DNA of 64,000 nucleotides from Bodo saltans (Eukaryota > Euglenozoa > Kinetoplastea > Eubodonida > Bodonidae): contig CYKH01000484.1 in NCBI GenBank assembly GCA_001460835.1, positions 21,667-85,666 of the forward strand, given 5' to 3'. The notes beneath the pieces are model-generated. The model did no database searches, was not told where the DNA came from, and saw only the letters and a program-made list of their open reading frames with translations. A program made the translations under genes and the position numbers. Of this stretch, positions 25,211 through 53,277 are shown one piece after another. The stretch's first letter is position 1; each line of letters opens with the position of its first letter.

Positions 25211-28200
25211 ATGGTCACGCTTTTGTTGTGTATCGCGCTGTTAGCGCAGTTGTGTTGTGGCCAATGGACGTTTTCTCCCGCAACGCCTATTGTGAATTTA
25301 CCTTTCCGTGTCACGACAACTGTGCAAGTGAGCAGCTTGTTTGTGTCAACAAGCCTTAGTTGCAGTGATGTTGCGAATGGAGGTGCAACGACTTTGTTGT
25401 CTGGCGGCAGTGCTGTTTTTCAGGTTTTATCCCAAAACGTGACGACATTCTACTTTTGTGACTCGCAGACGTATGTCAGCCTCACATCCATTCAGTTCGA
25501 GATGCTTACGATCGACCCTCGTTATGCAATCAGGAATGTTGTTACACATATTTCGTTTCCGTTGTTCACGCCAAACGGGACGATGTCACTTCGAGAGTAC
25601 TCTGATTGCTCTGGTTCGATAGGAGGCCAACAAGCTCTCTCTTCAACAAAAACTGTTGACGTTGCGTTTAGTGTAAGCGGGTACTATTTTGTGTGCTTGA
25701 CGTACTTTGACACAGTTGTGGCTCGATCTGTGACAACAAATATTAATTCATTTGTTGTGACGGACCCTTCAAGTTTCACACCACAAACAGCAATCACTTT
25801 TCAAACCTTGAGTTTTGAAATTTCTGGCGCTGCACCACCGAACGCTCGGGTGTTCTTTAGCTTGTCAACATCGTGCAACGTGACTTCACAAGGGTCACTT
25901 CAAGCAGGCGGATCATTTGGCAAGACTGTAAGTACAAGAATTGTACTTCCCAGTGGCAACTTTACTTTTTGTGTCGAAATTCCTATGGACAGTGGTGTGT
26001 ATGTTCCAAGCGGGGTTTTGAACGTTGGTCAATACTTTGTGCACCCATTTACAGCCTACGCAGGCCGTCCGACAACATACACTGCCCAATTCAACACTCA
26101 AGGTGTTTCATCTACCGTTGCACTTTCAACATCGACTTCGTGCATTTCACCCTTCGTGGTTGTAAACTCTCCAACAAACAGCATGGTCAATTGGACACTG
26201 GCAACAGGGACATACTATTCGTGTATTTTTAACGTTGCAACTCAAAGTTACATTCTTGCTTCTCAACATACTGTTGTAGCCTCACCAACAGTTTCATTCC
26301 TTTCACAAGCTGTTCGTGCACTGCCACTTTCTGTCCAGTCAACCGTCTCGAGCATTATTTTGGGAGCGGCAGTTCAAACCCCGACAATTGTGTTCAACCT
26401 TTCTGGAGGACTAGCAACGCAGATTGTTCCACCCACATCTTCAACGTCCCTCACGATTTGGGTCCCAACGAGTGACTATCAGTACTGGTACAACTTTGGT
26501 CAAACCAGTGTCCGAAACTTTGCACTTGTGAACCCTCCCATTTTCGTTGGTGAGCCATTCAATTTTACTGTTGACGCTGGTTTGTGGCCCCAATATCAAA
26601 TAAGGTTCGCATCGGCATCAACTTGCGTCGGAGGAGAAGACATGCAACTTCCAATTCTAGACAAACGCTCTGTGTTGAATATTTCTGGTGATCGCGTGGT
26701 TTGCGTCAATGGCTCCCAATTTGGATTTCAGGCAGCAACGGTGACCACGGTTTATGAAATTCCGTCTGTTTCACCATTGCGAATTCTTGCAAACAAGACC
26801 TCATCGATCACGGTTTTTCGCGTCCCAAGTGGTCAACAAGTTGTTTACGGACAAAGTTGCGACAGTTGGCAGTCGTCTTTCGTGAGTGTTGGTGCGCAAA
26901 CTACAATTAGTTTTCTTTCTTCTGCTGCGACTGCAACAAGCTTTTGCTCAACCTACGCAGGGTCCGCGAATGTGACATTGAGCCGGCTCCTTGGATCTGT
27001 TTCAAGCCTTGCAGTGACTGTTCGGCCTTCTGTGCAAGTTGTTAACATCTTGTCGACGTACGTTGTGTCTGTTGCTGATCCATCTCTCCTTTCCAGTTAC
27101 AGTCTCTTTGTGAGTGCTGATTGTTCGCAATCCACGCTTTCGTCACCTCTCGAATTGCAGAATGGAGTATTCATCGCGAAAGTGACACCAACGATGGTTG
27201 GCGCCTCCCTCAACGTGTGCGTCGGCAACAGTACGCAAGGATATTTTCTTGCAGCACACACTTCAATCGTTTCCCCATTTGACGTGACATACTCGACAGC
27301 ACTAGCAGGGTTGCCGTTTCAGCTGACTGTGGTGGGTACCACATTTCAGCCTCAACAGTACGTTGTTTCATCAACACGCAGCTGCAACGGCACCACTTAC
27401 GCCACGGGAGCACTGACGAATGGGACCGGATCAACACGTTTGCCACTCGCACAATCGTACTTTGTGTGTGTCTTCTCCGATGACGGAGCAACACTTCTCG
27501 AGGCTGGAGGTGTTCTTATTGGATCATTTTCTGCGACTTCCACAACCTTGGTGCGGCTTGTTGGAAATCAAATCGGTGTAACCACATCGATCACTGGTGC
27601 AAATTTCTTCCTGTCAACGTTCACAAACTGCTCTGGCACTCAATACGTTGCGTCACCATCATTATCTGCACCAGTAGGCCAATACGCTGTTTGCCAATCT
27701 TTGGGTGGATTTGCTTCAGGATCGACAAATTTAGTGCGTGTAATTGATCAGTTTGTTGCGAGTGCTCCGCCGAGTGTGAGATCATTTGTGCCTTTCAACG
27801 TCAACATCTCGCGAGGTGATTCAGGCGCACGCTCAGACATAAGCGTATTCTTGTCCTTGACAAACTGCTCTGGCGCACCGCTTGCGACGTTTACTTCGAG
27901 CAATCCAAGCTTTGTAACCATCACGATCCCCACACTTGCGTTCGTGAGGAGCGTTTTGTGCATCACCACTGCTGATGGGTATGTCACATCTCAGATTGCT
28001 GAGTTCTCACCGCTGCCATACATGTCACCATACACGATCGCCAGTACGGTCCCTGTGTCAATTTCCAGTGGGGCTCGTCAATCTGGATTTGCAATTGTTT
28101 CGCCAACTTCTGCTTGTGGTTCAGAGTGGATGAACGCAGTTGCTATTCAAAACAGCATCTCAACAGTGACGGTCCCACGCAGCACAAGCAACGTAGGGTA

Positions 28201-30829
28201 CTATTGTGAAAGCGACATTGCAGGACAATTTCAACTGCGTGGAGTTCTCGCTGTTATCCAGTTATCAAATGGAACTTCACAGCAAGTCATTTTCAATCAA
28301 ACCGCGTTTCCAGGTGTTCCAGTTGTTGCCAGCATTAACACGTCTTTAGTTTCGGACCCGTTTTTTTCAACATCGTCCTCCTGCTCAAACACTGTGGATT
28401 TGTCAAATGGTTACCTTCCGAGCGAGGGTGAGGAAGCATACTTTTTTGTGTGTGTCCTAACAGCAGACCAGACCCTTCGTTTCACAACACCGTTTCCAAG
28501 TGTCCATATTGTTGGCTATACAATCCAGCCAAAATCGTTTGTCGCGGGTAGTCAACAGTCGTTCTCATTGTCTTCGGCAATACCATCGCAAACTGTCATG
28601 AAGGTGAGTGGCACTTCCTCCTGCGCGACCAACGTTTCTGCGGCAATCGCCAATGGACAATCAGGTACCCTTTGGCCACTTGCAACACTTGACGGAATTT
28701 ATTACCTTTGTGCTCAAAGAGGCAGTACTCAAAGTGCTATCGCAACACTCCTTGTTTCACGCTCGCCCCAAAAGCTCACTCAAACACTTTTGATTCCCAA
28801 TGTACCCGTATGCGTCTCTCTGCAAAGCACCTCCACAACATTCAGTTTGATAGACGACTCTGGCTCGATGTACGACACGTTCCGCAACTACTATTCCTCG
28901 AGTAATCGATCCTTTTTCCTTTCCGCTTCAAGCACATTGTGTAGTGAGGGGAGTGGCGTCTTGAGTGCTGCTACTGCAGTGGTAAACATTTCCAGCGTTT
29001 GTCTCAGCACCTCAGGCGCAAGAGTTGGAGTTGAATACCAATTTTGTATTGGAACCCCTTCAGGCTTTGTTCCTCTAGGCAGCGCTACGTTCAACTCTGT
29101 GACAATTCAGCCCACCGTTCTGGTATCAGGAGGCTCGGTTGCACTCTCAGTGAACAATTTGCCTTCAGCAACAATTGCGCTCTCACCATCGACAACTTGC
29201 AGTCCTATTGTCACCTCATCTTTTACAGCGAACAGTTCTGGCGTCGTACCATTCTTCAATGCCTCGGCGAGTGACAACTCGTTCCTGAACCCAGGTACAT
29301 TCTTTGTTTGCGTGCTTAGTCCGCTTTCAACATGGATTTCTGTGGGGAATGTGAGTGTTGCTGGTGCGTCGTTCTACTCAATTTCAAACAACGTCGCAAT
29401 TCAACAAGTTCCAACGACTTTCGATTTGTTAGATGATTTGACTAGTGATGTCATTCTGGGACTTCGGACTTCGACGAGCTGTGCTCTGACATCTAGCATA
29501 GCGAGTGTGACGACAGTGACTTCAACAAGTATTTCTGTGACTGGAGCCGCTCCCGGCGTTACGTACCTTTGTGCAACAACACCGATCAATAATTCTGTGG
29601 TTGTGGTCGCAGCCATCAATATCATTTCAAGTTTCGCGCAGTTTTCCTCACAGGCTTCGACATGCACTGACATTACTGTTGGCGTGAACGCACCTGGGAC
29701 ATACACTGCCCTCACTCTCATTGCAGCAGACTACTGCTGTGGTGCCACAACTGCGGCTACTTTGTCAACAGCATCATCACCTTCAACATCACAACGCCGG
29801 TTCGTCGTGACAGACACTGACCTTGAAGGGTTTTCTTCACGAACTTCCTTTGCACTTTGCGCTTCAAACGCGACGTCGTGCTACAGCCTTGGTCAAATTT
29901 CGTTTGTATCATCGTCATGTGCTGGAACCCCAACACCGCAAACCCCATCTCCTGGTGGAAACAACGGCAACACTAACGGTAGCAACAGCAATCGGGTGGA
30001 CCTCGTATCATCGACAACCCAAGAATCGTCCAAAAAAATCACTCCAACAATTATTCTCGCCGCAGTATTTCTTCTGCTCTTGGTGATCGTGATCATCATT
30101 GTACTGGTTCAGTGCTGCCTTCGCTCAAGGCGCGTTATCCCGTCTGATGTTGAAGCTGGTAAAACACGAGAAGGTGCTGATGTGGCCGACAACGAATGGA
30201 AACGAACATTTGACTCCATTGTGAATACAAACAAGCGTGGTGCAAGCACAGCAGTGACGCTCAACCAACTGCTTCATGTTCCTATTTCAATGCGTTTAGA
30301 TACTTGCCGCGAAGCACCGATTCCAATTCAACTGCTGGAACTGCAAGAACGAGATGAGAGAGCTGCTCTCGCAGAGATTGAGCGTAATACCTTTTACAAA
30401 TTGATGGATAACATCGAGCGCGAGATGTACGAAATGCGAGAGTACCACGCCGCTGTGGAGAAGACCCGAGTTCTCCAAAACGTATCAGTGCTCCTGCAAG
30501 CTGAGTACATGTCACTTGCTGAGTTTGAAGAAGCAAATCGAACAGCAATCATGGATGATGAAGAAAACAACAGATTAGATGTTGTTGACGTTGAGAAACA
30601 GCACTGGCGCCATCAAGTTGATCTTGAAGGGCAACGCTTGAAGGACACTCTTGAGCGTGATCCATTCTGGAGGAATCGCAGGCGACTGCTTCGAGAGGCT
30701 CACATGAGAGCAATGCAGTCTGTCCAGGCCTCGCCAGCAGCTTTCGACCCAACTCCAAACCGCACTTTGATGGTTGACCAAACAGAGTTAGAATCGCGGT
30801 ACAACAAAGAGCAAGACTTGTATATCTAG
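25211..30829 (+). CDS. Giant repetitive type I membrane protein, probable surface glycoprotein, 1872 aa
   Basis: The first ATG is at 25211 (the open frame begins six bases earlier with GTG). A signal peptide (MVTLLLCIALLAQLCCGQW) is followed by a ~1600-residue ectodomain made of many divergent modules of about 90 residues. Each module has a Ser/Thr-rich strand with a Cys (SLSTSCN, STRSCNG, STSSSC) and a second Cys in a G-x-Y-x-x-C type strand (TYYSCIF, SYFVCVF, FFVCVL). The beta-rich, two-Cys pattern suggests a string of Ig-like or similar beta sandwiches. N-glycosylation sequons are numerous. One transmembrane helix lies near residues 1612-1638, then a Cys-Cys pair and a ~230-residue charged helical cytoplasmic tail ending YNKEQDLYI. 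Large repetitive surface proteins are known in Bodo saltans, but I cannot confirm this one's family. The ligand and function are unknown. Confidence 0.85.
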   Translation: MVTLLLCIALLAQLCCGQWTFSPATPIVNLPFRVTTTVQVSSLFVSTSLSCSDVANGGATTLLSGGSAVFQVLSQNVTTFYFCDSQTYVSLTSIQFEMLTIDPRYAIRNVVTHISFPLFTPNGTMSLREYSDCSGSIGGQQALSSTKTVDVAFSVSGYYFVCLTYFDTVVARSVTTNINSFVVTDPSSFTPQTAITFQTLSFEISGAAPPNARVFFSLSTSCNVTSQGSLQAGGSFGKTVSTRIVLPSGNFTFCVEIPMDSGVYVPSGVLNVGQYFVHPFTAYAGRPTTYTAQFNTQGVSSTVALSTSTSCISPFVVVNSPTNSMVNWTLATGTYYSCIFNVATQSYILASQHTVVASPTVSFLSQAVRALPLSVQSTVSSIILGAAVQTPTIVFNLSGGLATQIVPPTSSTSLTIWVPTSDYQYWYNFGQTSVRNFALVNPPIFVGEPFNFTVDAGLWPQYQIRFASASTCVGGEDMQLPILDKRSVLNISGDRVVCVNGSQFGFQAATVTTVYEIPSVSPLRILANKTSSITVFRVPSGQQVVYGQSCDSWQSSFVSVGAQTTISFLSSAATATSFCSTYAGSANVTLSRLLGSVSSLAVTVRPSVQVVNILSTYVVSVADPSLLSSYSLFVSADCSQSTLSSPLELQNGVFIAKVTPTMVGASLNVCVGNSTQGYFLAAHTSIVSPFDVTYSTALAGLPFQLTVVGTTFQPQQYVVSSTRSCNGTTYATGALTNGTGSTRLPLAQSYFVCVFSDDGATLLEAGGVLIGSFSATSTTLVRLVGNQIGVTTSITGANFFLSTFTNCSGTQYVASPSLSAPVGQYAVCQSLGGFASGSTNLVRVIDQFVASAPPSVRSFVPFNVNISRGDSGARSDISVFLSLTNCSGAPLATFTSSNPSFVTITIPTLAFVRSVLCITTADGYVTSQIAEFSPLPYMSPYTIASTVPVSISSGARQSGFAIVSPTSACGSEWMNAVAIQNSISTVTVPRSTSNVGYYCESDIAGQFQLRGVLAVIQLSNGTSQQVIFNQTAFPGVPVVASINTSLVSDPFFSTSSSCSNTVDLSNGYLPSEGEEAYFFVCVLTADQTLRFTTPFPSVHIVGYTIQPKSFVAGSQQSFSLSSAIPSQTVMKVSGTSSCATNVSAAIANGQSGTLWPLATLDGIYYLCAQRGSTQSAIATLLVSRSPQKLTQTLLIPNVPVCVSLQSTSTTFSLIDDSGSMYDTFRNYYSSSNRSFFLSASSTLCSEGSGVLSAATAVVNISSVCLSTSGARVGVEYQFCIGTPSGFVPLGSATFNSVTIQPTVLVSGGSVALSVNNLPSATIALSPSTTCSPIVTSSFTANSSGVVPFFNASASDNSFLNPGTFFVCVLSPLSTWISVGNVSVAGASFYSISNNVAIQQVPTTFDLLDDLTSDVILGLRTSTSCALTSSIASVTTVTSTSISVTGAAPGVTYLCATTPINNSVVVVAAINIISSFAQFSSQASTCTDITVGVNAPGTYTALTLIAADYCCGATTAATLSTASSPSTSQRRFVVTDTDLEGFSSRTSFALCASNATSCYSLGQISFVSSSCAGTPTPQTPSPGGNNGNTNGSNSNRVDLVSSTTQESSKKITPTIILAAVFLLLLVIVIIIVLVQCCLRSRRVIPSDVEAGKTREGADVADNEWKRTFDSIVNTNKRGASTAVTLNQLLHVPISMRLDTCREAPIPIQLLELQERDERAALAEIERNTFYKLMDNIEREMYEMREYHAAVEKTRVLQNVSVLLQAEYMSLAEFEEANRTAIMDDEENNRLDVVDVEKQHWRHQVDLEGQRLKDTLERDPFWRNRRRLLREAHMRAMQSVQASPAAFDPTPNRTLMVDQTELESRYNKEQDLYI
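25481..25549. repeat. Second copy of the gap-edge 69-bp repeat
   Basis: Lies in frame within the first modules of the large surface protein, where it encodes normal ectodomain sequence. The copy at the gap edge is followed instead by that gene's 5' leader, so this is the authentic location. Confidence 0.85.
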
Positions 30830-32343: not shown

Positions 32344-33132
32344 ATGGCGGTTCATTGGACACCAGATGACCAAGTGCTTGCATGTGAAAGCTGCGATGCT
32401 ACTTTCGGAGTCTTTCGCAGACGGCACCACTGCCGTCGATGTGGTGGTGTTTTCTGTGATAAGTGCTCTTCGGAAAAAGCACGGGGTCTACCAGGCTATG
32501 AAGAAACTCTCCAACGCATTTGTGGAGCGTGCAAACAGGCACTTCAGGCAATGAGAGAAGTAGGAAAAAAGCGCCCAAGAGAGCGCCGAGTGTGCATTTT
32601 AGGGTCGCCAGGGAACGGCGAGCTGTCACTCCTTCATTATTTATGTCCTGATGCATCGACAAGTCATGACACTCAAAAAGTTATCACGTTTGGGAGGACA
32701 AGACAAATGTCTCTTCGCACTGGGGGCGAGTTCGAGTATATTTTCTCCGTTGTTGACACAGGCCCAACAGGCTGCGAAATGTTCCAGCCGCAATACACAA
32801 TTGGCACGCACGCCTACATTTTTATGTTCAACGTGACAGATAGAAACAGCTTCTTAGCGCTGCTCCCGTTGAGAGATCGGGTACTTGAGTGCGGTGGGAT
32901 GGAGAAGGCTATGATCCTTGTGGGCAACAAGCCTGTGGGGTTTGGTGCTGTGGGGTCCACCACCAATGGGCCACAATTGGACCGCCAGGTGACAGTAGAT
33001 GAGGTTTCGTCATTGGGTCATCGCTGGGGTGTTCCACATCTAGAGTTGTCCTCCAGTAAACAACGTCAAGTCGATGAGTTGAAAAATACGCTCCTGCGGC
33101 TTGTTGCGGAGCGGGACCACCTCTCTGGGTAG
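32344..33132 (+). CDS. FYVE zinc finger fused to a degenerate small-GTPase-like domain, 262 aa
   Basis: Residues 1-68 are a FYVE finger: WxxD (W5-D8), the basic patch RRRHHCRRCGG (25-35), RIC near 58-60, and zinc ligands C14, C17, C30, C33, C38, C41, C60 and C63. It should bind PI(3)P on endosomes. Residues about 82-255 follow a Ras/Rab-like layout: strand RVCILG, P-loop GSPGNGELS, a switch-like FSVVDTGPTG, AYIFMFNVTDRNSF, and the guanine-specificity region LVGNKPVG with a final SSSK. The P-loop Lys is replaced by Glu and the NKxD Asp by Gly, so nucleotide binding is probably lost. There is no C-terminal prenylation Cys. An endosomal scaffold role is inference. This domain pair is not one I know as common. 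Confidence 0.82.
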   Translation: MAVHWTPDDQVLACESCDATFGVFRRRHHCRRCGGVFCDKCSSEKARGLPGYEETLQRICGACKQALQAMREVGKKRPRERRVCILGSPGNGELSLLHYLCPDASTSHDTQKVITFGRTRQMSLRTGGEFEYIFSVVDTGPTGCEMFQPQYTIGTHAYIFMFNVTDRNSFLALLPLRDRVLECGGMEKAMILVGNKPVGFGAVGSTTNGPQLDRQVTVDEVSSLGHRWGVPHLELSSSKQRQVDELKNTLLRLVAERDHLSG

Positions 33133-36745: not shown

Positions 36746-36929
36746 TATGACAACACATCACTACTCACTCAACATGAGATTTTGCCCCCTAGAATTAGAC
36801 AGTTTAGACCAAGAAAAAACGAGATGGGGGAAAAATATCAAAGAAACAGTGCTTGCTTGTACACTTTGCGACATTTAAAGATGTTACCTAGATGAACGGA
36901 TGATCGTGGAGGTAGTGACTCTGATGACG

Positions 36930-36950
36930 CTCTTTTTTTTTCATTTGCAG
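36930..36950 (+). promoter_or_regulatory. Candidate spliced-leader acceptor for the PanK fusion
   Basis: A textbook pyrimidine tract (CTCTTTTTTTTTCATTTGCAG) with the AG at 36949-36950, 30 bases before the ATG at 36981. Confidence 0.6.
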
Positions 36951-36980
36951 TGAATCTGGGGTGTTGAAGAAACAGAAGAA

Positions 36981-39900
36981 ATGCAGCTGCGTGTACTCAG
37001 CTACAACATGAACATGCTCCCATGGGGAGCAGGGGGTGCGTTTCAAGAAGAACGAGCCCGCACATTCTTGTCGTACGTGGAACAAGAGAAATACGATGTC
37101 CTTTGTCTTCAAGAGTTGTTCGCTGCTGCTCTACTGCCGAACGTAGCCCAGAAGGTGTTGTGCTTCCAGAGGAAATTGATCGATGCGTTGTACAACATGG
37201 GATACCAGTACTCGGTGTACTCGCGGCAGCCTTCGTACGTGTCCGTGCTACGGTATGGAATGGTCACAGACACCGGTCTCTTGATTTTGTCAAAGGTTCC
37301 CGTTGTGGATAGTGGTTCGTTCACGGTGCGCAGCACTACCCGAGGCCAGCATAAAGCGTTACGAGGGTGTATTTTTGCAAAGCTGTCGTTCGTCGACCAT
37401 CAGACCAATCGAGTGGCTGACATGGCAGTGTTCAACATGTACCTTCGTCCAGGCGCACCAGAGGGGAACACAGGATTGCTTCCTGACGTGGTGGGAGGAG
37501 CGACCCAAAGTCACCCACGGGATCAAGACGGGGACCAGCAAGTAAATCAGCTTTGTCGGTTCATAGAGTCCACTCTTGAGCCTCGAGGTGGGCGACAATG
37601 TGCTTTTCTCCTGTGCGGCAATTTTTATGGTGACTTTCCCGGCAACCAACAACACTTCGAAGACTTCGTAGCCAGGTTACAGCACTCATCCGTTGTAGGG
37701 GGCCAGGTGGTGGACGTACTGCATCGAGCGTACGGCCGCAATGTTCCCACTCGGCCTCCACGTTTGTTTTTTCAAACCAGAGCAGAGCTTTGTCTTGTTG
37801 ATGCTGAACCGCAGCGGCAAGATTTCCTATTGATCGGAAATGTCCGATCGGAAGGCATTCATATTCAGCAATCACATCTTGAGAAGTTCCACGCACCACC
37901 CCTCCGGCCCTACGTGTATCTGAGCGACCACTTTGGCGTTTGCACAGAATTGTCCTTTGCTGGCAAAGTACTCAAAGGCCCAGCGAATATGCATCACGAA
38001 AAGGTCAAAGCGAGTGGAGGTGGCGGCAACAACAACACAGTGCTTATCGATGGGACAAGGAAAGTTCTGCGATCCTACACCTTGTGGACAATGGAGGTAG
38101 CCGTTATGCTGACGATACTTATGTTGTGCGTGTTCTACGTCCCTAAAGCAGAGATTGCCGTCCCTTGCATTGCATTATTGCTGTCTCTTCGGTGGCTTTT
38201 CGGCCACACAGTGATTCGAGAGGGACTCGCAGTCGCAACGTCGATGGCGTTGGTGGCATCAGGAGCGACTCGAGTGCACACTGAGGACATTCACAACACT
38301 TCTCAAAACGCGGATCGCGATGTTAACCCTAATCGCGATGGCATTGTGCAGCCCACTGCCATTTGGGAACTCTGGGAGAAGAGCGTTGAGAAAAATCGAT
38401 GGCAGCGTTGCCTGGGCCAACGATCAGTGGACTCGGGCATCATGTTCGACTCCGAGTGGCTGACATTTGCACAGGTAGATGCACGCGTTCGAGACTTTGG
38501 CTCTGGTTTGTTATTGAGCTGTGTCAAGCGTGGAGACACCATTGGGATGCTATGTGGGTCTAATCGACGCGCGGTGGTTGCAGATTTAGCATGTTTGGGC
38601 TTCGGCATTGCTACGCTGACATTGGCGGGAACTCAGCCCGTCATACGGCAGCTTCTGGATACAAGGGGCATACGTGTCGTTGTTGCAAGCCGAACCTCTG
38701 TGATGACCTTGCTGGAGAGCAGGTCTCGCTGCCTGCGAACAATCATTACGTTGCACCCCACTGAGTACGAAGAAGAGGCCCTGGCCAAGGATCTCAACGT
38801 TGAGCTCTTGCGCTTCGAGACGGTAGAAGGACTTGGAAAAGCAAATCCATGCACGCCGTGCCCCATTGTAGCAGAAGAAGCCCCGTTCACGCAAGTGGTG
38901 GAGTCCAGTGCTACTGGCGTCATTGAGGTAAATGACTTCACGCAGCATGACCTTATCCGTGCAATCGCTTCTCTTCAGGAGCGAAACGTAGTCCCTCGGC
39001 AGACCGCCGCCACTCCACAAGGAACTGCAGCAAGCGATACTACGCGAGGAGGAGTTGTTGAAGTTCGGCGAGATATGATGGTGTGGTTTGCACCGTTCTC
39101 AACACTGTTCCACCGTATTCTTGTGCTGTCGATGTTACTTTGTGGAGGCAACTCTGTTGCTTGTGCTGAGCACGGCCGCTTACACGATGCACTTCGATAT
39201 TTTCGCCCGACTGTTCTTGTCGCCCCGCCATCCCTTTTCTACAGCGGCGAGCAACAGTTCAGGGATGCGATGCGCAAGTGGACGAGGGCCTTTAGGTTTT
39301 TGTTTATGAGCATCTATCGATTCCGCTCACAATTGATCCACGAGCACCACCGCGATTCGTCCACTCTTCGAAAGATTTTCTTTCATTCATTCCAACGTCA
39401 CATTGGTGGCAACGTGAAGAAGATCGTGATAAGCGGTACCGACACGAGCACACCCTTCTCGGTCCACGAGTTTATCGCTGTGTGCTATCATCCGTGTGTT
39501 CGAGAGGTGCTCTTTCACCAGAAGATCGGCGTTGTCGCAGTGGACGGGACACCAAGCTCGCACTGCACAGTTGCTGTGGTCCACCACCCAACGACGCCGT
39601 TGGCTGCAGATGATGCCCGTACGCTTGTGCCGATTACCGATGTATCCCCTCAACCTATGGAGGATGATCAAGGTCAAGAGCGGATTGGGCGGCTTCAGGT
39701 GACTTTGAAGTCTCTGCATCACCCCCACACTCAGCGAGCAGCCATGGAGTTCGACGTCGCTGCTGTGTGGACCACCTCTGAACAGAAGTCGCTGAAACTC
39801 CTTGGGCCAGCGGAGGGCATTCTGTGGCCGGTGCCGTACCTCCATGTCTCTGCGCAGGACATGGAACGTACTTACTCGCAGTGCCGCTATGTATTTGATA

Positions 39901-41774
39901 TCTTTGTGACGTGTGAGTCCGGTCGTCCGCTGGTTGCAGTCGTCCACCCCAACAAAGACTTGATTGAATGGGAGTGGCTGAATCGATTTAAGCATATGTC
40001 CACGAAGCAACTTTCTTGGCCGGAGCTGGTCAGCTTTGCCACTCCTCTGGTGATGGAAGCGTTTGGACAGCTTGCAAAGATTCACGACTTGCACCTATCT
40101 CAACGGATCACCGCTGTGCACATGCATCCACACACATTCTCAGAGCACGGAGATTTCTTTACACCCCACGGTCGTCTACGCAGAGCAAGACTCACAGATT
40201 ATTTCCGTCGACACGTTCAGCGTTTGTATGGTGGGTCGCAGCTGGACCGTTCACTCTTGCTAAGTCCAGTGGTCAAGGATATAGACGAGATTCCCAACGC
40301 CCTTTCCTCATCTGCTCTCGATATCCCCAGGCCACTGCGTCGGCATCCGTTGTGGCAGTTGGTTGTCCCAGTGGCGGTGGATATAGGAGGAACCTTCGCG
40401 AAGATCGTCTACCTGCGGCCGCCGGGTGGAGTCGGCTTGCCTTCGTTTGTGCAACGTGAATACAACGCACTCGAGAAGGCAATGATGCCAGACCTTCGAT
40501 TCTTCCGAGAGACATCGTCTCCCAGCAGCTCCCTCGCGCCAGATTCGTCGCCAAACGCAGATTTTCCCGGTGAACTCTGCTTTGCTCGTTTGGAGTCCAA
40601 GCGAGTCCCTGATTTTGTGGAGTTCTTGCAACAGAGCAACGCAACATCACTCTACAAACAAGAGCACGTAGAGCAAGTGCGCGCCACAGGGGGTGGTGCG
40701 TTTAAGTATGCAGCACTTGTCCAATCTCAGCTTGGTGTCAAGCTCCGAGTGGTGAAGGAAATGGACTCCATCGTGTGGGGACTTCATTTACTGTTGAGAG
40801 TCGCCCCAGAAACGATCTTCACCGTTGACGCGGATTCTGGGACTCCCCAGCCTCATAAGATCGTTGCGGCCGCCACGTCACATGTGAGCGAGACGACCAG
40901 CAGCCCATCACCACAGACAACCCCGATCAAAGACAACTCGAAGTCTCATCAACAACCTCGCTTAGATCCGTTTCCCTTCTTGATTGTCAATATCGGGTCT
41001 GGTATTAGCATTGTAAAATGTGTCAATGGTGATGGCACGTATGAGCGTGTTGGTGGTTCCGCTATTGGTGGGGCAACTTTCTGGGGCCTCGTACGCACAA
41101 TGACGAATATCAACTCTTGGGATGAAGTGCTGGAAACCACTCGAGTCGATGGTCCAGGCGACAACACCAACGTAGACCTCCTTGTGGGGGATATCTACGG
41201 GTACAACGCGACTGACCTCCCGAGCATGTTGTCAGTGGATACCGTCGCATCCACATTTGGCAAACTTGGTACAGATCGATTCTCGCGCACCAACAGCCAC
41301 CACACTCGCCGTCCTTCGACCATGTCAGAAGAGGACCTTGCGCTTTCTGGTAGTCCATCAGAGTTGCTCCACGAGTCTATGTACGGCGTTCCCGCAGACG
41401 ACGGAGATGCCGTTAGTGCGCGTCCACCTGCAACAGTTCCACTTGGCTTGGGCGGGGTTGGCCCAAATGCTAGGAACGGTGCGCCGTCCTCAGGAGGCAT
41501 CGGTCACCATCACCCCAATCTCGCCTCTATTGATGTTGTACGGTCACTGCTCATTATGATTGCCAACAACGTGACACAGCTTGCTTATTTGCATTGTTGC
41601 ACTGAGCATACCAAGTACGTGTTCTTCACAGGTGGGTTTGTTCGCGATAACCCAATTGTCTGGAGGCAAATATCGAAATCGATGAGATACTGGTCGAAAG
41701 GAGCGCTTCATGCGCACTTTATTGCTCATGATGGCTACCTTGGAGCACTGGGCACAGCGACAATCGACCTGTAA
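36981..41774 (+). CDS. EEP/sphingomyelinase-like + acyl-CoA-synthetase-like + type II pantothenate kinase fusion, 1597 aa
   Basis: Three domains in one frame. (1) Residues 1-325: endonuclease/exonuclease/phosphatase fold as in neutral sphingomyelinase, with SYNMN (N9), LQE (E45), DTGLLILSK and SDHFG (D316, H317). NTHL is NMYL (Y154) and GDxN is GNFY (N214, Y216), so catalysis is doubtful. A hydrophobic pair lies at ~373-430. (2) Residues ~455-1110: long-chain acyl-CoA synthetase layout, but the TSGTTGxPK loop is SSATGVIEV (642-650) and the DRK motif is GPAEG (942-946). (3) Residues ~1130-1597: type II pantothenate kinase with VDIGGTFAK (D1134), ATGGGAFKY (from 1235), catalytic-type Glu1260 in KEMDS, VNIGSG, GGSAIGGATF and a C-terminal HDGYLGALG. 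A ~75-residue Ser/Gly-rich insert interrupts domain 3. It should phosphorylate pantothenate, the first step of CoA synthesis. Confidence 0.88.
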   Translation: MQLRVLSYNMNMLPWGAGGAFQEERARTFLSYVEQEKYDVLCLQELFAAALLPNVAQKVLCFQRKLIDALYNMGYQYSVYSRQPSYVSVLRYGMVTDTGLLILSKVPVVDSGSFTVRSTTRGQHKALRGCIFAKLSFVDHQTNRVADMAVFNMYLRPGAPEGNTGLLPDVVGGATQSHPRDQDGDQQVNQLCRFIESTLEPRGGRQCAFLLCGNFYGDFPGNQQHFEDFVARLQHSSVVGGQVVDVLHRAYGRNVPTRPPRLFFQTRAELCLVDAEPQRQDFLLIGNVRSEGIHIQQSHLEKFHAPPLRPYVYLSDHFGVCTELSFAGKVLKGPANMHHEKVKASGGGGNNNTVLIDGTRKVLRSYTLWTMEVAVMLTILMLCVFYVPKAEIAVPCIALLLSLRWLFGHTVIREGLAVATSMALVASGATRVHTEDIHNTSQNADRDVNPNRDGIVQPTAIWELWEKSVEKNRWQRCLGQRSVDSGIMFDSEWLTFAQVDARVRDFGSGLLLSCVKRGDTIGMLCGSNRRAVVADLACLGFGIATLTLAGTQPVIRQLLDTRGIRVVVASRTSVMTLLESRSRCLRTIITLHPTEYEEEALAKDLNVELLRFETVEGLGKANPCTPCPIVAEEAPFTQVVESSATGVIEVNDFTQHDLIRAIASLQERNVVPRQTAATPQGTAASDTTRGGVVEVRRDMMVWFAPFSTLFHRILVLSMLLCGGNSVACAEHGRLHDALRYFRPTVLVAPPSLFYSGEQQFRDAMRKWTRAFRFLFMSIYRFRSQLIHEHHRDSSTLRKIFFHSFQRHIGGNVKKIVISGTDTSTPFSVHEFIAVCYHPCVREVLFHQKIGVVAVDGTPSSHCTVAVVHHPTTPLAADDARTLVPITDVSPQPMEDDQGQERIGRLQVTLKSLHHPHTQRAAMEFDVAAVWTTSEQKSLKLLGPAEGILWPVPYLHVSAQDMERTYSQCRYVFDIFVTCESGRPLVAVVHPNKDLIEWEWLNRFKHMSTKQLSWPELVSFATPLVMEAFGQLAKIHDLHLSQRITAVHMHPHTFSEHGDFFTPHGRLRRARLTDYFRRHVQRLYGGSQLDRSLLLSPVVKDIDEIPNALSSSALDIPRPLRRHPLWQLVVPVAVDIGGTFAKIVYLRPPGGVGLPSFVQREYNALEKAMMPDLRFFRETSSPSSSLAPDSSPNADFPGELCFARLESKRVPDFVEFLQQSNATSLYKQEHVEQVRATGGGAFKYAALVQSQLGVKLRVVKEMDSIVWGLHLLLRVAPETIFTVDADSGTPQPHKIVAAATSHVSETTSSPSPQTTPIKDNSKSHQQPRLDPFPFLIVNIGSGISIVKCVNGDGTYERVGGSAIGGATFWGLVRTMTNINSWDEVLETTRVDGPGDNTNVDLLVGDIYGYNATDLPSMLSVDTVASTFGKLGTDRFSRTNSHHTRRPSTMSEEDLALSGSPSELLHESMYGVPADDGDAVSARPPATVPLGLGGVGPNARNGAPSSGGIGHHHPNLASIDVVRSLLIMIANNVTQLAYLHCCTEHTKYVFFTGGFVRDNPIVWRQISKSMRYWSKGALHAHFIAHDGYLGALGTATIDL

Positions 41775-49404: not shown

Positions 49405-52400
49405 ATGTCGGACTTCCAGCAGCCCATGCTGGGAGCCTCATCCTCGTCGATGCCCGGCGGCGGTGCCAACGCCCCTGCTTCCCCAGGGTCCCCATCGTTA
49501 CGTCACCGCAATTTCTTCTTGAACGAAAGTAATTCGAACAAGGGATTTGCTGACAACACCGTACGGACGTCGAAGTATCGTTTTCTCCCTCTCCATCCTC
49601 ACTTTTTCCTCTGGCGAAATCTATTTGAACAGTTTCATAAAGCAGCAAACGGCTATTTTCTCCTTATTTCTTGCCTTCAGCTCATTCCTGGCCTCAGCCC
49701 CACCGGGACGTTCACAACCCTTGTCCCTCTGTGCGTTGTGATTGCCGCGACAATGCTCAAAGATGTGTTCGAAGATTTGAAGCGCCACAAAAGTGATCGA
49801 GAGGTCAATGAAAGAAAGGTTCCAGTGTGGCGCCAAGGGCAATGGGTGGGCATTTCATGGAGTGAACTCGCTGTTGGGGACATCTGCAACATTGCTTCTA
49901 GTGAGCCGTTTCCAGCGGATTTACTACTACTTCACTCCTCCGGAGATCATGGAGAGTGCAGTATCGAAACAGCATCCCTAGATGGCGAGACGAACTTGAA
50001 GAAGAGATACGTACCGCAGCAGCTAGTCATGCAGCCATACTTCGCATTGCCCCAAAATCCCACTTCTATTCGAGGATTGGTAGAATGTGAGCACCCAAAT
50101 AACAGGTTATACACCTTCGAGGGCCTTCTAGACACAAGTGTCTCCGGAATGGGTCGACCAGCAGTGCCGCTCACAGCAGATAACGTGCTCCTTCGTGGAG
50201 CTACGTTGCGCAACACCAACGCGATCATTGGCGCAGTCATTTTCACAGGATCCGAAACAAAACTGATGAAGAATAGCAGCTCAGCGCCTCCCGTAAAAAT
50301 GTCGCAGGTTGATGACGTTACCAATTGGCAAGTAGGGTACATTTTCGCCGCGCAGATCATCATCGTGCTCGGCTGTGCGATTGCGTCTGTTGCGCTGTCC
50401 AGCTCGGCGTTGAAGAACTGGTACCTTGGCCAGCTCACAAAGCCATCAGCGGCGTCATTCTTTTTCTCTAGAGCAGGCACGTTTCTGATCCTTTTCAACA
50501 ACTTGATTCCCATTTCACTGTACGTGACGATGGAGATGGTAAAGGTGATTCAAACGCTGTTCATCAATAATGATCTTGGCATGTACCACGAAGAGACCGA
50601 CACTGCAGCAAAGTGTTCTACATCGTCCCTCAACGAAGAGCTCGGCCAGATAGAATACGTCTTCAGCGATAAAACGGGAACCCTCACTCAAAACGTCATG
50701 GAGTTCCTGAAGTTTACGTGCGCACGGTACGACCCGCAGTTGAAGCGCGACGTTGCCGTGTCATACGGCACTGGAACGACAGAAATTGGAAGAGCCGCGG
50801 CGGCACGATCAGGTCGACCGCTAGTAGACGACCGGCCTGACTGGTGGTATCAAACCAAACATCCGTTTCAATTCTACGACTCGCGAATTAATGGAGGTCA
50901 ATGGGGCCGACAAGATAATCGTGCCCAGCTTGAGTTCTTTTTTTGCTTCCTCGCTGTGTGCCATGCTGTCGTACCCGAAAGGAAAAAGCACCCCATCACT
51001 GGAATTGAAGAAGTGATCTACTCAGGTGCATCTCCCGATGAATCTTCTCTGGTCAAAGCAGCCCGTAACATTGGCGTTGAGTTCGTGTCACGAGCTGGCA
51101 CCGAGGCGATCATTTCTGTTCGCGGCGTGGAGGAGCGTTGGAACATTCTTCATACGGTGGAGTTCGACTCCACAAGAAAGAGGATGACGGTAGTCGTGGA
51201 AACTCCTGACGGGAAGATTTTGGTAATGTGCAAAGGTGCGGACACGGTTATTCTTGATCGTCTACGGCCTGACCCGCTCACTGCCGCCATCCGTGACGAA
51301 ACGGTCGAGCACCTGAATCGATTTGCTGGAGAGGGGTTGCGAACATTGGTGCTGGGAATGGCCATTTTGAGCCAAAACGAATACTTGGCGTGGAGCAAGT
51401 TGTTTATGGAGGCCTCCAATTCGCTCGTGGATCGCGCAGCAAAGATTTCGGAAGTCGCAAGCCGCATCGAGCAAAACTTAGAACTTGTAGGAACGACGGC
51501 CATCGAAGACAAGCTGCAAGACGGTGTTCCCGAGACAATTGAGTTACTGAGCTCTGCGGGTATCAAGGTATGGATGCTGACCGGAGATAAGCAAGAGACT
51601 GCCGTTAACATCGGATTTGCCTGTTCCCTACTTGGTGATGATATGGGGGTGTTCACGTTCCACAACTGCAACAGTGACAACATCGCCAAGGTGTTGCAAG
51701 CATACCTGACAGATGCGAAACTGGTTGTCAATCAAGATCTTGCGCTGGTGATGGAGGGCAGCGTGCTTGAACTCGTTCTCCCCCCGGCTGAGAATGAGAT
51801 CATAGTCGAACTGAATGAGGAAGAAAAGGCAGCTGCAGCTGCAGCAAAGAAAAAGCCGACAAGCAAGCTTTCAGGTGTCATGGCCGCGTATGGAATGTCT
51901 GACATCAGCCAAACTAGCCTACGCCGCGAAACAGAGCTTTTCTTGAGCCTGGTGACTCGATGCCGTGCGGTCATTTGTTGTCGTGTGTCCCCACTCCAGA
52001 AAGCGCAGCTTGTGTCCCTCGTCAAAAAGAACATGAAAACAGTCACGCTGGCCATCGGTGACGGGGCGAACGATGTTTCCATGATCCAAGCGGCCCATGT
52101 AGGTGTTGGCATCAGTGGGCTAGAGGGACTCCAAGCTGCGCGCTCTGCAGATTACAGCATCGGACAGTTCCGTTTCCTGCAGCGGTTGCTCTTAGTACAT
52201 GGACGGTACAACTACCGGCGCATCTCTCGGTTGATCCTTTACTGCTTCTACAAGAACATTTCGCTGTACCTCACGCAGTTGTGGTTCTGCGTGTTCAACT
52301 TTTGCACCGGGCAATCGCTTTACGATCCATGGGCACTTTCCATGTACAACGTTGCCTTCAGTGCGTTTCCTATTGTCATCACGGCGACGCTTGACAAGGA

Positions 52401-53277
52401 TGTTCGCATGGAACGGTTGCTGAGTAAGGATCAATTCCCTGAGCTGTATCACGACGGGCTTCACCACACATTGTTCAACACGGGAACATTCTGGCTATTC
52501 CTCGGGAATGCAGTATTTCACAGCCTGCTCGGTTTCTTCTTGAGCATTCGTATTTTGCAATACTTCACCGATTTCTCTTCAGGCCTCGACCTGGGAATGA
52601 CTGGCTCAGGGTGCACTGCGTACTCCGCCATCTTAGTGATCGTGACTGTGAAGATTTCACTGGAAACGCAGTCGTGGACTGTGGTGAACATCATCGTCGT
52701 TCTTGGATCTGTACTGCTATGGTATGCGTTCCTCGGGCTGTATGGAAATTTCTTCAACGTTGCCAAGATCAAAGATTTCGCGTTATGGTACGGAATGCCA
52801 AGCCAAGTGCTCAAGCAGCCAACCTACTGGCTCGCCGTCATTATTATAGCCAGCGTTGCGGTACTGCGAGATTTCTTATGGAAAGTTTGGCGGCATAATT
52901 TCAATCAGAAACTAATGCACGTTGTGCAAGAATTTGAAAGCATCGATCGACCCTTTAGCCGCAAGGATGTGCTCCGATACAAGCCCCACTTGCTTCCCAA
53001 ATTCCAGCTGCTCAAGCCATACGAAGCAAACGTGAAGATGTACTCTTCTGTTTTCGTTGACGAAGACGTGACAATGGTGCCAAAAATCGCGATGTTGTCT
53101 GTTGCAAACACTGCAGTGAAAGCTGCCTCTACTGCCGTAAGTGTCGTGGAGCGTGCCCGCAATGATCCATCAAAAATGAAACAGACGGGACCAGCAAGAG
53201 CAGTCCCGCGGAGTGGTTTCTTTGCGTCTCCAGGCAAAGTGAGGATTAATGACATCCTTGTCGATGAGCTTCTTTGA
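49405..53277 (+). CDS. P4-type ATPase, aminophospholipid flippase, 1290 aa
   Basis: Moves phospholipids from the outer to the cytosolic leaflet. The ATG at 49405 is chosen; the frame is open 45 bases upstream only from a GTG. The actuator domain has the P4-typical SLDGETNLKKR. The phosphorylated Asp is D422 in FSDKTGTLTQN. The nucleotide-binding domain has CKGADTVILDR, then MLTGDKQETAVNIG and GDGANDVSMIQAAHVGVGISG (from G885). About ten TM helices are present, with the P4-specific N-terminal FLPLHPHFFLWRNLFEQFHKAANGYF region read as unbroken family pattern. An Ala/Lys-rich insert (AAAAAAKKKP) lies between the nucleotide-binding and phosphorylation segments. P4 enzymes usually need a CDC50 partner, not seen in this window. 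Confidence 0.94.
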   Translation: MSDFQQPMLGASSSSMPGGGANAPASPGSPSLRHRNFFLNESNSNKGFADNTVRTSKYRFLPLHPHFFLWRNLFEQFHKAANGYFLLISCLQLIPGLSPTGTFTTLVPLCVVIAATMLKDVFEDLKRHKSDREVNERKVPVWRQGQWVGISWSELAVGDICNIASSEPFPADLLLLHSSGDHGECSIETASLDGETNLKKRYVPQQLVMQPYFALPQNPTSIRGLVECEHPNNRLYTFEGLLDTSVSGMGRPAVPLTADNVLLRGATLRNTNAIIGAVIFTGSETKLMKNSSSAPPVKMSQVDDVTNWQVGYIFAAQIIIVLGCAIASVALSSSALKNWYLGQLTKPSAASFFFSRAGTFLILFNNLIPISLYVTMEMVKVIQTLFINNDLGMYHEETDTAAKCSTSSLNEELGQIEYVFSDKTGTLTQNVMEFLKFTCARYDPQLKRDVAVSYGTGTTEIGRAAAARSGRPLVDDRPDWWYQTKHPFQFYDSRINGGQWGRQDNRAQLEFFFCFLAVCHAVVPERKKHPITGIEEVIYSGASPDESSLVKAARNIGVEFVSRAGTEAIISVRGVEERWNILHTVEFDSTRKRMTVVVETPDGKILVMCKGADTVILDRLRPDPLTAAIRDETVEHLNRFAGEGLRTLVLGMAILSQNEYLAWSKLFMEASNSLVDRAAKISEVASRIEQNLELVGTTAIEDKLQDGVPETIELLSSAGIKVWMLTGDKQETAVNIGFACSLLGDDMGVFTFHNCNSDNIAKVLQAYLTDAKLVVNQDLALVMEGSVLELVLPPAENEIIVELNEEEKAAAAAAKKKPTSKLSGVMAAYGMSDISQTSLRRETELFLSLVTRCRAVICCRVSPLQKAQLVSLVKKNMKTVTLAIGDGANDVSMIQAAHVGVGISGLEGLQAARSADYSIGQFRFLQRLLLVHGRYNYRRISRLILYCFYKNISLYLTQLWFCVFNFCTGQSLYDPWALSMYNVAFSAFPIVITATLDKDVRMERLLSKDQFPELYHDGLHHTLFNTGTFWLFLGNAVFHSLLGFFLSIRILQYFTDFSSGLDLGMTGSGCTAYSAILVIVTVKISLETQSWTVVNIIVVLGSVLLWYAFLGLYGNFFNVAKIKDFALWYGMPSQVLKQPTYWLAVIIIASVAVLRDFLWKVWRHNFNQKLMHVVQEFESIDRPFSRKDVLRYKPHLLPKFQLLKPYEANVKMYSSVFVDEDVTMVPKIAMLSVANTAVKAASTAVSVVERARNDPSKMKQTGPARAVPRSGFFASPGKVRINDILVDELL

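Follow-up and report, generated by a model that had tools for sequence, protein, structure and literature searches.

Bodo saltans carries, on the plus strand of the window analysed here (the whole stretch of DNA, 64,000 nucleotides), a long reading frame that ends in a pantothenate kinase (PanK), the enzyme that catalyzes the first and regulated step in making coenzyme A (CoA). Why should this kinase be joined to two other enzyme-related domains, and do these domains still work as enzymes? As read from its sequence, the locus is a single frame encoding a PanK with its motifs, of which no second copy was found, behind two enzyme-related domains that are altered at residues on which such enzymes depend. 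If the sole PanK of this organism is built together with an inactive fatty-acid activator and an anchor in a membrane, CoA supply may be coupled directly, at one cellular site, to how much lipid is available. The features discussed below are listed in Table 1.

Table 1. Features of the PanK fusion gene, with positions in the window
Feature	Position	Strand	Basis
Putative trans-splice acceptor: 13-nt pyrimidine tract, then AG	36930..36950	+	Sequence pattern
Single open frame, 1597 aa	36981..41774	+	ORF translation, genome search
Degenerate EEP (endonuclease/exonuclease/phosphatase) domain, residues 1-330	36981..37970	+	Pfam 24.8 bits; own-genome profile 18.0 bits
GNFY (213-216) replacing GDxN	37617..37628	+	Motif reading; GDxN in 8/8 readable paralogues
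Hydrophobic pair 367-385 and 394-412, putative transmembrane hairpin	38079..38216	+	Hydropathy only
Degenerate acyl-CoA synthetase domain, probably long-chain type, residues 463-1083	38367..40229	+	PF00501; long-chain profile
SSATGVIEV (642-650) replacing ATP-binding TSGTTGxPK; Lys = Glu649	38904..38930	+	Lys in 12/12 references
GPAEG (942-946) replacing (G/D)RxK; Arg = Pro943	39804..39818	+	Arg in 12/12 references
FTPHGRLRRARL (1060-1071), remnant of C-terminal LTPTxKxKR motif; Lys = Arg1065	40158..40193	+	Lys in 12/12 references
Type II PanK domain, residues 1131-1592	40371..41756	+	PF03630 318.3 bits; aligns to yeast CAB1, human PANK1
Glu1260, aligned to Glu of the E(L/M)(D/E) stretch in PANK1/CAB1	40758..40760	+	Alignment

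The reading frame and its kinase

The window translation gave one unbroken frame of 1597 codons from an ATG, exactly where a preliminary description of this DNA had placed three domains in one frame. A search of the genome with this frame returned one match, 100% identical and with no internal stop; it lies in the same assembly and is hence no independent check. Upstream, a 13-nt pyrimidine tract (36930-36942) is followed by an AG at 36949-36950, and the ATG at 36981 is the first beyond it. A pyrimidine tract, an AG and then the first ATG is the usual look of a trans-spliced kinetoplastid gene. Codon usage by segment did not distinguish the true frame of the PanK fusion from the other frames.

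The C-terminal domain matched the Fumble family (PF03630) over profile positions 2-331 of 334 when the parts of the protein were scanned separately with Pfam, far above the cut-off of 28.5 bits. With the NCBIfam equivalog model TIGR00555, the PanK domain scored 219.3 bits, below the cut-off of 247.6, probably due to two insertions of low-complexity look that interrupt it (about residues 1288-1328 and 1436-1512, by eye). The motifs that had been called intact, VDIGGT, ATGGGAFK, Glu1260 and VNIGSG, were located at the same positions (VDIGGTF at 1133, ATGGGAFK at 1235, KEMD at 1259 and VNIGSG at 1336). The C-terminal 460 residues resemble human PANK1-3 and yeast CAB1, and DIGGT, ATGGGAFK, Glu1260, VNIGSG, Arg1356, WSKG and GYLGALG all stand in aligned positions against CAB1 and PANK1. 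Both the family profile and the glycine motifs with the catalytic Glu thus place the domain in the type II PanKs. Glu1260 occupies what we take to be the column of the catalytic Glu138 of PANK3. The E138A variant of PANK3 is catalytically inactive, according to PMC6199309. In the explanation that we favor, the fusion protein is predicted to carry an active type II PanK. The solved human and yeast PanK chains that it matched are 360-386 residues long and lack the upstream part, whereas the fusion protein has approximately 1130 residues before the kinase in addition to the two kinase insertions.

This PanK was the sole Fumble match found across the 29.3-Mb assembly, and no second or unfused PanK was found in its 934 contigs, which possibly do not make up the complete genome. 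Genes for later steps of CoA synthesis are present elsewhere in the genome (two CoaE matches and one DFP frame), so that the pathway continues and the sole PanK found is probably needed. The CoaE (dephospho-CoA kinase) matches are two separate ones, L040 and L041, against the one PanK found.

The domains upstream of the kinase

Judged by profile scores and blocks, the N-terminus is a weak yet above-chance EEP domain. Exo_endo_phos of Pfam covered residues 6-152 when the domain was scanned alone, narrowly above its cut-off of 24.5 bits; the score was below that cut-off in the whole protein (21.1 bits, residues 6-137) and in the genome search (23.7 bits). Of the three domains, Fumble and AMP-binding were well above their cut-offs, whereas EEP passed on the isolated domain and fell short in the whole protein. 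An EEP profile was also built from seven of the ten other EEP matches in the genome, leaving out L008, L005 and L013, the last of which runs off a contig end. With this profile, none of 500 shuffles reached the score of residues 1-335 (shuffled maximum, 5.9 bits), and residues 140-335 gave 5.6 bits against a maximum of 3.2 in 500 shuffles. A profile comparison with hhalign covered only 47 columns, at a probability of 61.7, and the EEP domain alone retrieved no other EEP match from the genome at E up to 1. The blocks LSYNMN, CLQELF and YLSDHFGV, shared with the EEP superfamily (exonuclease III/AP endonuclease, TDP2 and neutral sphingomyelinase), are present. Profile and blocks together assign the domain to this superfamily, near the threshold.

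Glu45 and the terminal Ser-Asp316-His317 of the EEP domain are kept. However, the GDxN motif of catalytic members is GNFY in the fusion protein. This substitution, pointed out previously, is a real departure: of the ten other EEP matches in the genome, eight are readable over this stretch, and GDxN stands in every one of them. These eight are the seven profile members and L008, read by eye. Tyr154 had also been put forward, as the loss of the family His. A Tyr does stand at that position, but it is not decisive: a Tyr in the N-x-Y-x-P block is also found in members of the exonuclease III/AP-endonuclease type, and we therefore do not take it to prove that the EEP domain is dead. One such paralogue is L007, with E values of 1.6e-15 to 2.2e-10 against solved exonuclease III and AP endonucleases. 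It has NVYVPN in this block, and the solved exonuclease III aligned to it has NIYFPN; their correspondence to FNMY of the fusion protein was made by eye. The nearest in-genome EEP protein by phmmer, L003 (E 0.0013), resembles TDP2 and has TSHF, with the His, in the same block, so that Tyr154 could still be a loss. The name "sphingomyelinase-type" was not confirmed: the weak database matches of the domain were mostly exonuclease III, with no sphingomyelinase family among them, and the best row of one search was a ribosomal protein, a chance match. We consider the EEP domain more likely to be a scaffold or a lipid/membrane-contact module than a hydrolase.

Between the EEP and synthetase-like domains, a hydrophobic pair was found close to the region of about 373-430 where one had been proposed. 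The mean Kyte-Doolittle values are 2.03 (367-385) and 1.65 (394-412). Values of 1.6-1.9 also occur in three stretches within the globular domains, and the transmembrane nature of the pair, judged by hydropathy, is therefore only probable. The Isc1/SMPD2-type neutral sphingomyelinases have an EEP domain with a transmembrane pair behind it, an arrangement into which the hydrophobic pair of the fusion protein would fit.

The next domain matched AMP-binding (PF00501) at 60.1 bits on its own (cut-off, 29.9) and at 56.9 bits, over residues 489-755, in the whole protein. A long-chain synthetase profile was built from two in-genome proteins, L014 and L017, and ten prokaryotic relatives, L028-L037; the genome holds 13 other AMP-binding matches, of which only these two entered the profile. 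The domain scored 45.6 bits in total with this profile, residues 463-821 contributing 40.4 and residues 956-1083, which followed in order, only 0.7. A profile comparison in which nothing was realigned extended over 563 columns (E 2.7e-12, 15% identity). In controls with 500 shuffles each, residues 456-830 gave 45.1 bits against a shuffled maximum of 0.7, and residues 940-1100 gave 5.4 against 2.1. Residues 800-960 were not above chance (-1.8 bits, equalled or passed by 16 of the 500 shuffles). Homology therefore extends over the whole ANL domain, as both ends exceed all shuffles, although the piece 800-960 taken alone does not. Furthermore, FFTPHGRLRRARL near the C-terminal end aligns with the LTPTxKxKR block of long-chain enzymes. 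The in-order match and this remnant are shared with the long-chain acyl-CoA synthetases, including L014 and L017, and suggest that the domain probably descends from an entire long-chain-type synthetase rather than from its N-terminal part alone; "long-chain" here denotes likeness to the long-chain profile, the one ANL subfamily compared.

In contrast to these likenesses, none of the five catalytic columns examined is kept in the fusion protein, and each is kept in all 12 references. The P-loop Lys is Glu649, the Glu of GYGxTE is His861, TGD is absent, the Arg of (G/D)R is Pro943, and the C-terminal Lys is Arg1065. The alignment near TGD and GYGxTE is uncertain; neither motif is visible in the translation there. 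The loss of motifs that had been noted at SSATGVIEV and GPAEG is therefore confirmed and proves to be wider. Since L028-L037 were fetched by patterns that included DEWTPEN, its conservation among them reflects this selection, and the block was left out of the count; none of these patterns touched the five catalytic columns. The strict P-loop pattern occurs in eight of the 13 other AMP-binding matches in the genome, and L018, which is outside these eight, has a variant that keeps the Lys. We concluded that activation of fatty acids by the usual route is not plausible for the synthetase-like domain.

What the fused domains may do

We give an even chance to the following reading: the sole PanK found is a membrane-tethered type II PanK fused to a degenerate EEP domain, a hairpin and a degenerate long-chain-type synthetase, and these pseudoenzymes serve as a scaffold and probably sense lipid or acyl-CoA. 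Both degenerate domains lie within approximately 1100 codons free of stops, an open stretch that would be surprising under neutral decay. The hairpin would hold the fusion protein at a membrane. The synthetase-derived domain would keep a fatty-acyl or acyl-CoA pocket without turnover, and occupancy of this pocket would change PanK activity. A lipid-supply signal would thereby be added to the acetyl(acyl)-CoA feedback already present in type II PanKs. These enzymes switch between an active, ATP-bound dimer and an inactive dimer bound to acetyl(acyl)-CoA, and acetyl-CoA feedback acts on PANK3, as described in PMC6199309. Since this dimer switch exists, a fused domain could bias it. The loss of the ATP-site residues argues against acyl-AMP as the ligand and for a fatty acid, acyl-CoA or no ligand at all. 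Sensing of lipid or acyl-CoA by the upstream domains may reasonably be inferred from these features, and if true, it would clearly exemplify the re-use of enzymes as sensors. A bolder form, which we regard as rather doubtful, has PanK controlled in cis by two captured pseudoenzymes: the synthetase would read the supply of acyl groups or acyl-CoA, the EEP domain would read or dock on membrane lipid, and CoA synthesis would be set at the membrane. We know of no other PanK with such a layer of lipid-status control.

The upstream domains may instead be purely structural, tethering PanK to a membrane or organelle or binding partner enzymes while sensing nothing. We hold this less probable than the sensing reading, behind which it ranks closely. 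Only the folds would then be needed, and the catalytic residues would have been lost for this reason. The change of all five synthetase columns, ATP-site residues included, makes even nucleotide binding doubtful and fits such a role, as does the position of the hydrophobic pair between the EEP and synthetase-like domains. However, a synthetase-type domain of more than 600 residues would be costly if only a tether were needed, and its N-terminal part keeps clear similarity to the family (45.1 bits). A tether only would nevertheless still be a testable explanation for where CoA synthesis starts in cells of the Bodo saltans type. It is unlikely that either domain retains a changed catalysis by means of an active site assembled anew from different residues. 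The EEP domain does keep Glu45 and the Ser-Asp-His end, and Tyr154 has its counterpart in exonuclease III-type members; however, the change from GDxN to GNFY takes away both the Asp and the Asn, and on the synthetase side the P-loop Lys has become Glu, while the Glu of GYGxTE, TGD and the C-terminal Lys are gone.

We regard it as very improbable that the fusion is an artefact, whether a misassembly or a long frame from which two or three trans-spliced mRNAs are made. Unbroken pyrimidine tracts of 9-11 nt occur at six places inside the frame, in every case no more than 50 bases from an AG, and internal trans-splice acceptors may thus be present. However, none of these tracts is as long as the 13-nt tract just before the start codon, which is the longest uninterrupted one within 36746-41774, and the frame is unbroken across both linkers.

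Relatives and neighboring genes

The whole protein, scanned against viral contigs and against contigs of prokaryote genomes, revealed no relative, and neither did the paralogues L014 and L003 when scanned against the viral contigs; these were single-protein scans, which reach close relatives only. In the open-access literature, none of the titles and abstract starts among the matches listed describes a fusion of EEP, synthetase and PanK, which is weak evidence of absence. Trypanosomatid databases contain long entries named "pantothenate kinase subunit, putative", which we take to be possible orthologues of the same architecture; this phrase did not occur in the open-access papers among the matches listed. 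The fusion architecture may therefore be that of an annotated yet unstudied trypanosomatid family. The heteromeric PanK complex of apicomplexans is likewise a protist PanK other than a plain homodimer; the partner in that complex is another PanK rather than an EEP or synthetase domain joined to the kinase. Such a complex appears as a title in the reference list of PMC8717973. In the parts of PMC3833962, PMC2927427, PMC7052976 and PMC8717973 that were available, the domain make-up of kinetoplastid PanK is not described.

The proteasome beta-3 subunit encoded in the window scored 360 and 355 bits against two proteasome chains, 6qm7 from Leishmania and 9f9p from a trypanosome, and no more than 220 bits against the other 14 listed, which include human and yeast chains. 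This looks like a kinetoplastid at a similar distance from both. Up to about 25.2 kb, most long open reading frames of the window are on the minus strand; from there on, most are on the plus strand. Neighbors in kinetoplastid-type gene blocks seldom share a function. A frame for a P4-type phospholipid-translocating ATPase (flippase) at 49405-53277 (+), some 7.6 kb further downstream than the PanK gene, is for this reason probably unrelated to it. Upstream, a 262-aa frame at 32344-33132 (+) combines a FYVE zinc finger (73.2 bits) with a Ras-family GTPase-like domain (40.4 bits), to our knowledge an uncommon pairing of two membrane-traffic domains. The frame at 25211-30829 (+) encodes 1872 residues rich in Ser and Thr. 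Pfam gave it no match up to an E of 0.01; by eye it appears to have a signal sequence, and it has the look of a large surface protein.
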